Assembly: GCF_003688415.1 (NCBI RefSeq)
Contig: NZ_REFJ01000003.1
Span: 186,001-250,000 of the forward strand
Direction: 5' to 3'
DNA length: 64,000 nucleotides
From: Umboniibacter marinipuniceus
GTDB lineage: Bacteria; Pseudomonadota; Gammaproteobacteria; Pseudomonadales; DSM-25080
Below the pieces are notes generated by a model that was given only the letters and a program-made list of their open reading frames with translations, had not been told where the DNA came from and made no database searches. Of this stretch, positions 30,140-42,686 are shown piece by piece (positions within the stretch are counted from its first letter, which is position 1; each line of letters begins with the position of its first letter). Made by a program: the position numbers and the translations under genes.

Positions 30140-30216
<77 letters not shown>

Positions 30217-30405
30217 TCAAACTGGTGCAAATTATAAGCGATTAGCTCCACTAGTCAACCCAGAGGAACCCCTAACACACCTATAACGCTAATCAAAACG
30301 ACGTTTAGTCCCTACATTGACTCAAGCTCTAAGAAACATGCCAATGTATAACTAAGTGAGGCATCGACTCACATTCACTTCGTGAGCCGAGAAACGAACC
30401 ACCAA
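30217..30405. other. Spacer between tRNA-fMet copies A and B
   Basis: 189 bases without a gene. It holds the promoter of copy A (30231-30258) and a small hairpin (CTCAC / GTGAG) at about 30368-30386. I see nothing else in it. Confidence 0.6.
30231..30258 (-). promoter_or_regulatory. Sigma-70 promoter for tRNA-fMet copy A and rimP-nusA-infB
   Basis: On the minus strand TTGACT (30258-30253), a 16-base spacer and a perfect TATAAT (30236-30231). Initiation would fall about 8 bases before the tRNA 5' end. Confidence 0.8.
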
Positions 30406-30606
30406 TAGTAGCAGGAGCTGGCTTATCACCATCGACCTTCAGCGGCTGCGCCGGTTGAAAGCTGAGCCCGACCGGGCACTCTATCTAAAACCACCATCTT
30501 AAAATTGGTAGCAGGAGCTGGCTTATCACCATCGACCTTCAGCGGCTGCGCCGGTTGAAAGCTGAGCCCGACCAGGCACTCTATCTAAAAACTACCATCT
30601 TAAAAT
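30406..30606 (-). repeat. tRNA-fMet-derived repeat pair 2
   Basis: Units begin at 30406 and 30506 (100 and 101 bases) and end at tRNA copy B. Both have CCTGC in place of CCCGC near the tRNA-like 3' end, so these units carry small shared changes; the far unit also has CTA instead of CCA at its end. Confidence 0.85.
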
Positions 30607-30683
<77 letters not shown>

Positions 30684-30746
30684 TCAAAAACATTAATCCT
30701 TTCGGACTTTCACAACGAACCTCAACCGAGGTTAAATTCTTCATTG

Positions 30747-30938
30747 ATAGCTGGCTTAACACCATCGACCTTCAGCGGCTGCGCCGATTGAAAGCTGAGC
30801 CCGACCGGGCACTCTATCTAAAACTACCATCTTAAAATTGGTAGCGGGAGCTGGCTTAACACCATCGACCTTCAGCGGCTGCGCCGATTGAAAGCTGAGC
30901 CCGACCGGGCACTCTATCTAAAACTACCATCTTAAAAT
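30747..30938 (-). repeat. tRNA-fMet-derived repeat pair 3 (outer unit truncated)
   Basis: The inner unit is 30839-30938, 100 bases. The outer unit lacks about ten bases of its tRNA-like 3' end and is recognisable from about 30749. Both have TGTTAAG in the dead T-loop where pairs 1 and 2 have TGATAAG or close variants, so units within a pair resemble each other more than units of other pairs. Confidence 0.8.
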
Positions 30939-31015
<77 letters not shown>

Positions 31016-31153
31016 TCAAAAACATTAATCCTTTCGGATTTTAGAACCAACACCTTAAACTAAGGCAGGATCTTACTTCTTCTTCCGCACGCTCAAACCA
31101 AGCTACTAACACAGCCTTCAACAAGAAAGGAAGAGAGAAATTAACACTAAGAA

Positions 31154-31341
31154 CTGGCTTATCACCACCGACCTTCAGCGGCTGCGCCGGTTGAAAGCTG
31201 AGCCCGACCGGGCACTCTATCTAAAACTACCGTCTTAAAATTGGTAGCGGGAGCTGGATTATCACCATCGACCTTCAGCGGCTGCGCCGATTGAAAGCTG
31301 AGCCCGACCGGGCACTCTATCTAAAACTACCATCTTAAAAT
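31154..31341 (-). repeat. tRNA-fMet-derived repeat pair 4 (outer unit truncated)
   Basis: Inner unit 31242-31341, 100 bases; outer unit recognisable from about 31154. The inner unit has GGATTATCACC, a form between the repeat (GGCTTATCACC) and the true tRNA (GGATTCGAACC), as expected from recombination between the two. Confidence 0.8.
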
Positions 31342-31418
<77 letters not shown>

Positions 31419-31437
31419 TCAAACTGGTTTTTTTATA

Positions 31438-31523
31438 TGGTGCCGAAGGCGGGACTTGAACCCGCACGAGCATAGCTCACTACCCCCTCAAGATAGCGTG
31501 TCTACCAATTCCACCACTTCGGC
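31438..31523 (-). tRNA. tRNA-Leu (GAG)
   Basis: 86 bases with CCA encoded: acceptor GCCGAAG / CTTCGGC, anticodon arm CTATC-TTGAGGG-GGTAG (anticodon GAG), a long class II variable arm and T-loop TTCAAGT. Sits right after secG, as leuU does in E. coli and the equivalent gene in Pseudomonas. Confidence 0.95.
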
Positions 31524-37608: not shown

Positions 37609-38082
37609 TTAGTGCTCAACCGCATCGATTTCGAACTCAACCACTCCGGCCGGGGTTTGGATATTCACCACATCGCCAACCATCTTACCGATCAAGCCTC
37701 GGGCGATTGGTGAAGAATAGGAAATCCGATTCTCCGCTGGATTCGCCTCATCTTCACCAACAATGCGATACTGTTTTTCTTCCTCAGTATCAACGTTAAT
37801 GATGGTTACCGTTACGCCAAAAATTACCTTTTCGGTTGCCGGGATTTTTTTGATATCAATAATCTGTGCATCGGACAACTTCGCTTCAATCTCTTGAATA
37901 CGCCCTTCGCAGAATCCTTGCTGCTCACGAGCAGCATGGTACTCAGCGTTCTCCTTCAGATCACCGTGCTCACGAGCCTCAGCGATAGCCTTGATAATAG
38001 TGGGGCGATCCACCTTCTTCAAACGCTCTAGCTCAGTCTCGAGCGCTTGCGCGCCCTCGACTGTCATAGGAGTCTTATTCAT
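37609..38082 (-). CDS. greA: Transcription elongation factor GreA
   Basis: Rescues backtracked RNA polymerase by stimulating transcript cleavage. 157 residues: N-terminal coiled coil with the acidic tip [16 protein letters not shown], then an FKBP-like C-terminal domain ([16 protein letters not shown]). The start shares four bases (ATGA) with the carB stop, so it is the last gene of carA-carB-greA. Confidence 0.96.
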
Positions 38083-41000
38083 CCTTTAATACTCCCATGT
38101 AGATCTTGTAGGCGGCGAACTTGAACCTCACCTTTATGCTGAAGCGCCATGCACACCGCACGGCCACCAGCCAAGGTGGTGGTGTAGTATACGCGATGTA
38201 TCTCTGCGCTCGAACGGATTAGCGCCGAGTCACGAATCGCTACACGCCCTTCAGTGGTGTTGATAATCATTGTAATCTCATCATTACGAATCATATCCAC
38301 AATATTTGGGCGCCCTTCCATTACCTTGTTCACCAAGCGAACTGGGATATTGGCTTCCTGAAGCACCTTAGCGGTACCTCGAGTAGCAACCAGCTCAAAG
38401 CCTAGCTCTACAAGGTCACGGCCAACTTCCACAACGCCCTCTTTATCAGGTTCACGGACCGATAGGAAAGCTACACCCTCCGTCGGCACTTCGTCGCTCG
38501 CGCCAAGCTGTGCTTTAGCGTAGGCTTCAGCGAAGGTATCGCCCACACCCATAACTTCGCCCGTAGACTTCATTTCAGGCCCAAGAATTGGGTCAACACC
38601 AGGGAACTTATTGAACGGGAACACCGCTTCCTTAACCGAGAAATAATCCGGAACAATTTCCGAAGTAAAACCTTGATCAGCCAGTGAAATACCTGCCTGA
38701 CAGCGCGCAGCAACCTTAGCAAGGCTAGTACCGATACACTTAGAAACGAACGGAACCGTTCGTGAGGCGCGTGGGTTTACCTCAATAACGAAACACTCTC
38801 CGTCTTGGTAAGCGAGCTGAACATTCATCAAACCAATAACACCTAGCTCAACCGCCATGCTCTTTACCATCTCGCGCATTTCATCTTGCACGTCAGCGGG
38901 CAGAGAGTAAGGAGGTAATGAACAGGCTGAGTCACCCGAGTGAACACCTGCCTGCTCAATGTGCTGCATGATTGCACCGATGACAACGGTCTCGCCATCT
39001 GATACCGCATCAATATCTACTTCGATTGCTGCATTAAGGAAGTGATCCAATAGAACCGGCGCATCATTGGATACTTCAACCGCTTCGCGGAAATAGGTGC
39101 GTAGCTCAGTTTCGCTGTAGACAATTTCCATAGCTCGACCACCAAGGACATACGAAGGACGTACAACAAGGGGGTAACCAATCTCTTCAGCTCGAACAAC
39201 AGCCTCATCAATTGAACGCACCGTAGCGTTACGCGGCTGGCGCAGGCCTAGGCGTTTAATCATATCGGAGAACTGCTCACGATCTTCGGCACGATCAATC
39301 GCTTCCGGCGTAGTACCAATAATTGGTACGCCAGCAGCTTCAAGTTCACGCGCAAGCTTCAGCGGTGTCTGACCACCAAACTGCACGATAACACCCTTAG
39401 GCTGCTCAAGATCACAGATTTCTAACACATCTTCGAGCGTGACTGGCTCAAAGAAAAGACGATCTGATGTGTCATAGTCAGTTGAAACCGTTTCTGGGTT
39501 ACAGTTAACCATGATGGTCTCGTAACCGTCGTCTCTCATTGCTAATGCTGCGTGAACACAGCAGTAGTCAAATTCAATTCCCTGGCCAATTCGGTTAGGC
39601 CCACCGCCGAGAACAAGAATCTTATCGCGGCCACTTGGCGCTGCCTCACACTCTTCTTCGTACGTTGAGTACATGTAAGCCGTCGCGGTGGAGAATTCTG
39701 CCGCACAGGTATCAACTCGCTTGTAGACGGGGCGAATATTCATCTTCTGACGAGTACGACGGAATTGCTTTTCGCTGACACCGAAAAGCGTTGCCAAGCG
39801 CGAATCAGAGAAACCCTTGCGCTTTAGTGCGTACATCGCGTCTTTGTCAATGTTAGACAGCGCAGTAGTGCTAATTGACAGCTCGGTATCGATAATGTCT
39901 TTGACTTGCACCAGGAACCAAGGATCAATAGACGAGAGCTCGAAGACCTCCGCTACCGACATACCCGCGCGGAAGGCATCGCCTAAGTACCAAACTCGGT
40001 TTGCGCCAGGCGTTGACAACTCACGACGAATAACCGATTCAAAGTCAGGCGCATCAATATCTACTATGGTCTCGAAACCTGCAGAACCGACCTCTAGGCC
40101 GCGCAGTGCTTTTTGGAAAGACTCTTGGAAGCTACGGCCAATCGCCATAACTTCACCCACAGACTTCATCTGCGTGGTCAAGCGCGCATCCGCATCACCA
40201 AATTTTTCGAAGGTAAAACGAGGGATTTTCGTCACAACGTAATCAATCGCCGGCTCGAACGATGCCGGTGTTGCACCACCCGTGATGTCATTCTGAAGCT
40301 CATCTAAGGTGTAACCAACTGCCAGCTTTGCCGCCACTTTGGCAATCGGAAAACCGGTTGCCTTTGAAGCTAACGCTGAAGAGCGCGAGACCCGCGGGTT
40401 CATCTCAATGACCACAAGGTCGCCATTTTCTGGATTTACCGCGAATTGAACGTTTGAGCCACCGGTTTCAACCCCGATCTCTCGGAGCACTGCCACCGAG
40501 GCATTACGCATAATCTGATATTCTTTATCCGTTAGGGTCTGTGCTGGCGCTACGGTGATTGAATCGCCTGTGTGAACACCCATCGGATCAAAGTTTTCGA
40601 TTGAGCAGATGATGATACAGTTGTCGTTCTTGTCGCGAACAACTTCCATTTCGTACTCTTTCCAACCAATTAATGACTTATCGATTAGCAGTTCTGAAGT
40701 TGGTGATAGATCTAGACCACGAGTACAAATCTCTTCGAACTCATCACGATTATAGGCAATACCACCGCCCGATCCACCCATTGTAAAGGAAGGTCGAATG
40801 ATGATCGGGAAACCAAAGCGATCGCGGATAGCGCGTGCTTCATCAAGGTTACGAGCGATACCTGCTGGCGGACACTTAAGCCCAATACGCTTCATGGCCT
40901 GATCGAACAACTCGCGATCTTCCGCCATGTTGATGGCATCTCGGCTTGCGCCGATTAGCTCACACTCGAACTTCTCGAGCACGCCATTATCCGCAAGAGC

Positions 41001-41300
41001 TAGCGCACAATTTAGCGCAGTCTGACCACCCATTGTTGGCAGTACTGCATCAGGTCGCTCTTTTTCGATAATCTTCGCCACAGTGCGCCATTCTACTGGC
41101 TCAATATAGGTCGCATCAGCCATAGCCGGATCGGTCATGATCGTAGCGGGGTTAGAGTTAACTAGAATAACTCGATAACCTTCTTCACGAAGCGCTTTAC
41201 ACGCCTGCGCACCGGAATAGTCGAACTCACAGGCCTGTCCAATTACAATTGGACCAGCACCCAGGATCAAAATACTTTTAATATCTGTACGTTTTGGCAT
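38079..41300 (-). CDS. carB: Carbamoyl-phosphate synthase large subunit
   Basis: Makes carbamoyl phosphate for arginine and pyrimidines from bicarbonate, ammonia from CarA and two ATP. 1073 residues, the full size, with two homologous ATP-grasp halves ([39 protein letters not shown]), an oligomerisation domain between, and a C-terminal allosteric MGS domain ([16 protein letters not shown]). Ten bases from carA. Confidence 0.97.
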
Positions 41301-41310
41301 ACCCGCTCCG

Positions 41311-42444
41311 TTATGCTTTGCGCTGAGCCATCAGCTCAATAAAGTGGTCAAATAATGGTGCTGCATCGTGTGGACCAGGACTTGCTTCAGGGTGTCCCTG
41401 GAAGCTGAATGCTGGTTTGTCCGTGCGGTGAATACCCTGAAGAGAGCCATCAAACAATGACTTGTGCGTCGCCACGAGATTACCTGGCAGCGAGCTCTCA
41501 TCTACAGCGAAGCCGTGGTTTTGAGATGTGATCATGACCTGCTTAGTTTCGAGCACTTGTACAGGGTGGTTAGCACCGTGATGACCGAACTTCATCTTTT
41601 CGGTTTTAGCGCCAGAAGCCAGTGCAAGTAGCTGATGCCCAAGGCAGATACCAAAGATCGGCAGGTTATCTTGCTCTAGCAGCGTTTGAATTGCTTCAAT
41701 TGCATAAGTACACGGCTCTGGGTCACCTGGACCATTCGAAAGAAACACGCCGTCTGGCTCCATCGCCAACACTTCGCTCGCTGGGGTCTGAGCCGGAACA
41801 ACTCGTAGCTCAACGCCACGATCAACCAGCATACGCATGATGTTGCGCTTGATACCATAATCGTAGGCAACAACCTTGTAAGGCTTCTCGGCTGGCGAGA
41901 CGAAACCCTTTCCTAGCTGCCAACTACCAACTTCCCATTTGAACGCGTTTGAGGCGGTAACTTCTTTGGCGAGATCCATACCCTTCAGACCCGGGAATGC
42001 TTTCGCCTTTTCAATTGCCTCTTCTTCGCTGGCAAATTGCCCCGCGACGATACAACCACTCTGCGCGCCTTTCTCGCGAAGGATACGAGTTAAGCGACGA
42101 GTGTCGATGTCGGCAATACCAACGATGTTATGCCGTACTAAATAGTCACTAAGATTTTCTTTGCTGCGGAAGTTTGACGCCAGCAAGGGAAGATCACGAA
42201 TTACCAAGCCCTTGGCCCAAACCTTTTGCGATTCTTCATCCTCGCTGTTTGAACCCGTATTTCCAATGTGAGGGTAAGTTAGGGTAACAATCTGTTCGGC
42301 GTATGATGGGTCAGTTAAAATTTCCTGATAACCTGTCATGGCCGTGTTGAAAACTACCTCACCACTAGCGGAACCCGTCGCACCAATTGCAGTGCCTCGA
42401 AAAACGCTTCCATCTGCTAACGCGAGAATGGCTATGTGACTCAT
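41311..42444 (-). CDS. carA: Carbamoyl-phosphate synthase small subunit
   Basis: Glutaminase subunit. 377 residues; class I amidotransferase domain with nucleophile in [14 protein letters not shown] and the [10 protein letters not shown] and [11 protein letters not shown] blocks. GAAGGAGACGAA is just before the ATG. The leader upstream contains a mini-ORF and an attenuator-like terminator. dapB, which precedes carA in Pseudomonas, is not here. Confidence 0.97.
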
Positions 42445-42543
42445 TTCGTCTCCTTCGAACGTAGGGCCTTACATTTCTGGCACAACAAAGCACCTAGCCT
42501 TTCGACTACGTGATTTTCATTGAACTCAAAAACGTTCGGCTAT

Positions 42544-42573
42544 AAAAAAGCGAGATGAGCTCTCTCACCTCGC
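42544..42573 (-). terminator. Attenuator-like terminator in the carA leader
   Basis: On the minus strand GCGAGGTGAG / CTCATCTCGC (loop AGAG) is followed by TTTTTT. One pair is G-U on the minus-strand RNA but would be an A-C mismatch on the plus strand, so the hairpin is built for minus-strand transcripts, that is, for carA. It lies 100 bases before the carA start. Confidence 0.8.
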
Positions 42574-42605
42574 TTGGAATTTGATGCATGCCGGAGCTTT
42601 TAGCT

Positions 42606-42638
42606 CTAGCTGCCGCCGCCAAATAAAACGTTTTCCAT
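42606..42638 (-). CDS. Possible carA leader peptide, 10 residues
   Basis: ATG at 42638 to TAG at 42606 encodes MENVLFGGGS. It lies between the -10 box at 42681-42686 and the terminator at 42544-42573. Its ATG falls in the loop of an imperfect hairpin (42619-42650: CCAATAAACG with CGTTTTATTTGG). No Arg codons are present and the ribosome binding site is weak, so the frame may be fortuitous. Confidence 0.35.
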   Translation of the reverse strand: MENVLFGGGS

Positions 42639-42680
42639 ATCGTTTATTGGCACCTGTGACGGCTCTTTGACTGGGAGCAA

Positions 42681-42686
42681 ATTATA
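42681..42686 (-). promoter_or_regulatory. Candidate -10 box of the carA promoter
   Basis: A perfect TATAAT on the minus strand; no good -35 at the right distance (TAGCTT or AGCTTG). The 42445-43019 gap also holds the leader structures below it and the divergent kinase promoter; the middle part, about 42720-42950, shows nothing I recognise. Confidence 0.45.

Follow-up and report, generated by a model that had tools for sequence, protein, structure and literature searches.

A conserved terminator stem in the carAB-greA leader of Umboniibacter marinipuniceus and its relatives

What does the leader ahead of carA in Umboniibacter marinipuniceus do, and which of its features bear on the expression of the operon? 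The window (the whole stretch of DNA analysed, 64 000 nucleotides) carries carA, carB and greA in that order on the minus strand, as in carABgreA attenuator systems (family searches). The first-pass annotation took the leader for a transcription attenuator assembled from a TATAAT box, a hairpin with an ATG in its loop, the ten-codon frame MENVLFGGGS, a GAGCT hairpin and a terminator. All of these were found on the minus strand at the places it gave, and of them only the terminator is conserved. The features are as follows.

37609–38082, minus strand: greA, the third gene of the operon (NF001264, 252.7 bits)
38079–41300, minus strand: carB (NF003671, 1730.8 bits)
41311–42444, minus strand: carA (TIGR01368, 484.9 bits; ATG at 42444)
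42450–42454, minus strand: AGGAG, the likely carA ribosome-binding site, as read from the sequence
42528–42597, minus strand: full extent of the conserved element in the carA leader (by R1 and R2)
42544–42549, minus strand: run of six T following the terminator stem (sequence)
42548–42575, minus strand: conserved core, the intrinsic terminator hairpin AAGCGAGGTGAG-AGAG-CTCATCTCGCTT (covariation and model matches)
42594–42606, minus strand: GAGCT-AAA-AGCTC hairpin, not conserved (sequence)
42606–42638, minus strand: ten-codon frame MENVLFGGGS, judged to be chance (ATG GAA AAC GTT TTA TTT GGC GGC GGC AGC TAG)
42618–42651, minus strand: imperfect hairpin with the ATG (42638–42636) in its loop (folds)
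42681–42686, minus strand: TATAAT, −10 box of a putative promoter for carA; no good −35 lies at 16–18 nt (sequence)

Against dinucleotide shuffles the window leader has the more stable fold (z = −3.3; none of 200 shuffles equals it), and the terminator contributes much to this; in the window scan the terminator scored on the minus strand only. Elsewhere in the window are a ribosomal S15 leader (RF00114, 23628–23750, minus strand, 55.9 bits) and a cluster of five tRNA genes (30143–31523, minus strand), four of which score equally.

The terminator stem among relatives

The 150 carA upstream regions compared come from 80 named records and from 70 genomes of the order to which the window belongs, among them its own genome and those of two congeners; 75 genomes had a carA match, and G024, G034, G043, G053 and G073 were omitted. 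A pattern search found a near-identical stem, AAGCGRGRTG...CAYCYCGCTTTTTT, in 110 of the 150. The pattern behind this first alignment fixes CG...CG and the T-run, so that invariance at those sites is built in, and it passed over stems with long loops (L021, L125 and each of the eight Acinetobacter loci were found afterwards). Removal of near-duplicates from the 110 hits left 85 leaders, and alignment A1 is a subset of 61 rows hand-picked for diversity. The first-pass annotation had proposed a search for covarying stems in relatives' carA leaders; in the 61-row alignment the terminator stem has 12 pairs, eight of which change on both sides with pairing kept. Conservation is concentrated in the paired stem and the loop is variable.

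A covariance model, R1, places the element upstream of carA and on the carA strand in 111 of the 150 loci, 61 of these rows having trained the model; the 111 comprise 53 of the 80 named loci and 58 of the 70 from the order (manual row counts on the carA strand, with a far match at L042 517–581 and antisense rows dropped). The window site scores 44.6 bits, the best in its genome, with the window itself among the training rows. For that reason the window's genus was left out of a second model, R2, whose top hit in the window is still this site (34.4 bits) and which also finds both congeners. Of 195 genomes of the order, R1 matches 156 at E ≤ 0.01; the 39 left without a match include several lineages. 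At 30 of the 30 best R1 loci carA lies directly downstream on the same strand, and the same holds for all 78 R1 loci (18 of them among the 30) fetched from genomes not represented in the first set; these 78, the second set of leaders, were chosen on R1 score, some genera may occur in both sets, and one locus, L285, was left unparsed. By R1, R2 and covariation alike, the strand-specific terminator seen before carA in the first pass is real and goes beyond chance.

As a control we looked at the terminators 3′ of greA, which were found in 11 of 30 loci; their stems are unrelated and differ even between congeners. Since the carA terminator stem is conserved while these are not, the carA leader stem looks to have been kept by selection rather than by mere descent. 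On the alignments and model matches, the element is present in most of the order, with counterparts in Acinetobacter and perhaps also in Alteromonadales. Five loci of Alteromonadales type (L035, L051, L061, L055 and L065) have similarly built terminators upstream of carA, e.g. ACGGGATG...CCCGTTTTTT; the element may not be confined to the order. The element is also present on L056 (CAMAXE010000006.1), which is titled as a Klebsiella pneumoniae metagenome-assembled genome; the title looks wrong.

All eight Acinetobacter loci (L038, L042, L043, L047, L052, L058, L063 and L066, four of which were folded) keep the outer stem and the T-run, and a second hairpin with a T-run of its own is nested in the loop. 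As the outer stem persists around a complete inner terminator, it may do more than terminate.

The base pairs themselves point to the strand on which the stem acts. At three stem pairs read by script on the carA strand, G·U outnumbers A·C by 34 to 3 in the 85 leaders, and in 61 other leaders by 26 to 3; the selection pattern permitted A·C as freely as G·U at these pairs. Because G·U is far in excess on the carA strand, and the two would be swapped on the other strand, we read the structure as selected in the form of carA-strand RNA, and by this pairing signature the terminator stem works as RNA on the carA strand. A DNA operator was considered and is unlikely, as the spacing of the arms varies and G·U is favoured over A·C.

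The Rfam family P31 (RF01676) spans the same terminator and the sequence between it and the ribosome site of carA, above cut-off, in four of four Pseudomonas-group loci, but it is modelled on the strand opposite carA, and its consensus is mismatched where the carA strand has G·U. The window scores 18.5 bits against it on the plus strand, below the gathering cut-off of 40. The pair counts favour the carA strand, and the P31 entry may therefore be on the wrong strand. This strand question concerns the Pseudomonas-group carA upstream regions L123, L135, L073, L079, L095 and L106.

Leader peptide, upstream pairing and promoter

A ribosome translating MENVLFGGGS, or a frame that crosses the terminator, might decide whether the terminator forms, in the manner of pyrBI. 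The ten-codon frame does exist, other frames run across the terminator (in the window MHQIPSEVRELISLFY..., in L005 others), and a leader peptide is reported for P. aeruginosa (in parts of PMC4997734). We nevertheless regard translation coupling as very improbable. MENVLF occurs in only two of the 150 loci, the window's own genome (L001) and its closest relative (L004), and the frame is absent from the third species of the genus, whose leader differs (L005). It stops 30 nt short of the terminator stem, neither a clear Shine–Dalgarno sequence nor a good ribosome site goes with it, and a closed ATG frame of at least ten codons arises in 23% of shuffles of the window leader. In a set of 146 leaders, closed mini-ORFs eight or more codons long are as frequent as chance predicts (21, with 20.7 in shuffles); 46 leaders have ORFs running through the terminator against 53.0 in shuffles, and a Shine–Dalgarno sequence with an ATG is below chance (2 against 7.0). 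For P. syringae DC3000, the passages concerned in PMC4997734 report that the leader peptide was not found and that such a start codon is lacking. MENVLFGGGS thus looks like a chance frame, and the mini-ORF loses the part in an attenuator that it had been given. A leader peptide as a general feature was rejected; no conserved, translatable leader ORF is placed to affect the terminator.

The other proposal of the first pass was that repeated GAGCT/AGCTC elements pair in alternative ways. More generally, the 5′ leader could pair with a terminator arm according to the state of a ligand, as in a riboswitch or antiterminator. Across relatives the leader before the terminator folds on itself somewhat above chance (mean z −0.65 ± 0.12) and pairs modestly above chance with the 40 nt after the terminator (mean z −0.44 ± 0.13); in the window CGGC (42593–42590) and GCCG (42540–42537) make a candidate closing stem. 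Pairing with the terminator arms is nevertheless at chance over the 85 leaders (z −0.06 ± 0.12 for the 5′ arm and +0.04 ± 0.11 for the 3′ arm), and antiterminator pairing with either arm was rejected on this result. The GAGCT hairpin occurs in one of the 85 leaders, with only GAGC/GCTC retained in L004 and an unrelated hairpin in L005. The distance from the −10 box to the terminator ranges from 28 to 182 nt among relatives, and the window leader has no Rfam 15 riboswitch match above cut-off. A ligand-dependent switch of this kind is accordingly unlikely, and the repeat pairing did not survive the comparison. The imperfect hairpin with the ATG in its loop is kept in L004, whose carA is 99% identical, and has other sequence in its place in the congener L005.

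The −10 sequence TATAATTTGCnCCC is also present in both congeners, i.e. it is kept within the genus. The promoter scan scored no sigma-70 pair on the minus strand of the window, because TATAAT has no good −35 partner. Upstream of the terminator in relatives, a promoter like T(G/A)GACA-17/18-TANAAT was found in 61 of 85 leaders (5 of 85 shuffles) and in 53 of 77 leaders of the second set (9 in shuffles), the control in both sets being one shuffle per leader with dinucleotides not kept.

In many of these promoters a TTT starts 7–11 bases after the −10 box (22 of 60 leaders against 2.7 in shuffles, and only one of 60 at positions 15–19); in the second set the figure is 11 of 31 non-redundant leaders against 1.8 in shuffles (21 of 52 before removal of redundancy). 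Typical forms are GTTTAAC, AATTTGCC and GATTTTTTG. A UUU tract would thus stand at the predicted start of about a third of the relatives' carA promoters (e.g. L019, L028, L062, L074 and L121), as it does at the E. coli carAB promoter P1, where transcription starts GUUUGC and is reported to be controlled by UTP-sensitive slippage (reiterative transcription; parts of PMC6245113). By this likeness, carA promoters in some lineages of the order may share the slippage start known from E. coli, the starts being predicted. The window reads TTGCTCCCAG after its −10 box, which has no UUU and differs from a UTP-slippage start, where three or more U follow a purine at +1; the slippage lead therefore concerns the relatives and not the window. 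Unlike in the window, no such terminator is reported at E. coli P1 in the passages of PMC6245113 on that promoter.

Among protein regulators, ArgR of the E. coli type was ruled out, as PF01316 has no match in the window's genome; this concerns the E. coli type and not the AraC-type ArgR of Pseudomonas. PF00156 has six matches in the genome, which are PyrR candidates. A regulon sharing the element was also considered and rejected: nine other R1 sites examined in the genome (E ≤ 0.6, opposite-strand repeats dropped) adjoin unrelated genes, none lying upstream of a recognisable pyr gene. The sites sit either at the 3′ end of a gene or between two genes, glnA, ihfB and rluB being examples (names read from translations rather than from a family search).

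Relation to the Pseudomonas leader and proposed mode of action

The closest known system is the carABgreA leader of Pseudomonas, described in PMC4997734, which cites Kwon (1994) and Livny (2006). In P. syringae this leader has a promoter and a Rho-independent terminator, past which the 3′ end was mapped; breaking or removing the stem raises reporter expression, and uracil lowers that of the full-length fusion. In P. aeruginosa, as cited there, removal of the stem-loop abolishes the pyrimidine response, and P32 and a transcript of about 80 bases are reported, with a leader peptide said to be made. The window shares with this region the operon, the place and the order of promoter (putative in the window), terminator and carA; its stem is matched by R1 and R2, and Pseudomonas loci rank among the best R1 matches. 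The window leader is longer (by sequence about 105 nt from the −10 box to the stem, compared with about 50 in Pseudomonas) and lacks both the T-run on the opposite strand and a shared leader peptide. The pyrimidine response through the stem-loop is reported for Pseudomonas only.

We consider the window site to be a member, in another lineage of the same order, of the Pseudomonas carAB-greA leader attenuator (the P32 region), with a probability of about 0.6. The attenuator very probably belongs to the known pyrimidine brake first seen in Pseudomonas, and regulation in U. marinipuniceus is inferred by analogy with it. The lack of a good −35 in the window promoter counts against an attenuator of the P32 type, and so does the absence of R1 matches from several lineages of the order. 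The idea of a transcription attenuator ahead of carAB-greA is upheld in part: conservation and the Pseudomonas work (parts of PMC4997734) speak for it, while the build from a mini-ORF and pairing repeats does not stand.

In such an attenuator, RNA polymerase would start just after 42681 and transcribe some 100 nt of structured leader before meeting an intrinsic terminator whose stem sequence is far better preserved than those of ordinary terminators. Part of the transcripts would end there as a short RNA and the remainder would continue into carA, carB and greA. Termination would be conditional and, if Pseudomonas is a guide, would rise with pyrimidines. By exclusion of a ribosome on a leader peptide and of a conserved antiterminator, the signal may be read by RNA polymerase itself, through nucleotide supply, or by some hairpin-binding factor. 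The mechanism is probably not a ribosome reading a peptide, although the leader peptide reported as produced in P. aeruginosa (PMC4997734, in part) stands against a peptide-free mechanism there.

The terminator might instead be fixed and unregulated, lowering carAB-greA expression and freeing a short P32-like RNA that perhaps acts in trans, with control at the promoter. This would agree with the failure to find a conserved sensor, antiterminator or leader peptide among the relatives' leaders and with the 80-base transcript of P. aeruginosa. It would also agree with three reports for P. syringae in the same parts of PMC4997734: deletion of P32 had little effect, growth being little changed and qRT-PCR unchanged with arginine plus uracil, and ArgR acts jointly on P32 and carA. 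A fixed terminator is, however, hard to square with the uracil effect on the full-length P. syringae fusion and with the loss of the pyrimidine response of P. aeruginosa without the stem-loop (both as given in PMC4997734), and a conserved paired stem with a variable loop is unlike the seed of a typical trans-acting small RNA. We think it rather improbable. The P32-type attenuator can be taken further, tentatively, to an order-wide, ribosome-free pyrimidine attenuator in which the near-invariant lower stem AAGCGAG/CTCGCTT would be a recognition site for a factor or part of a terminator tuned to nucleotide supply, joined in many lineages by a UTP-slippage start; this extension is possible, though doubtful.

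Two other leaders invite comparison. The Polynucleobacter carA motif (parts of PMC8632094) is likewise a structured RNA upstream of carA that was proposed to be cis-regulatory, but it is a beta-proteobacterial extended imperfect hairpin by the ribosome site, proposed as a riboswitch, and is not a terminator element. GraL of E. coli (parts of PMC2965389) likewise involves premature termination upstream of an operon containing greA; it is the leader of greA itself and has another sequence, whereas greA comes third in the window operon. In the limited collection of literature searched we found no description of the element across the order.

P32, which PMC4997734 calls Pseudomonas-specific in a passage citing Livny (2006), would on these matches be part of an element spanning most of the order. 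The comparison counts against leader peptides as the general sensor and favours the carA strand over the strand of the Rfam P31 model, and it makes the pyrimidine control of carAB outside E. coli directly testable.
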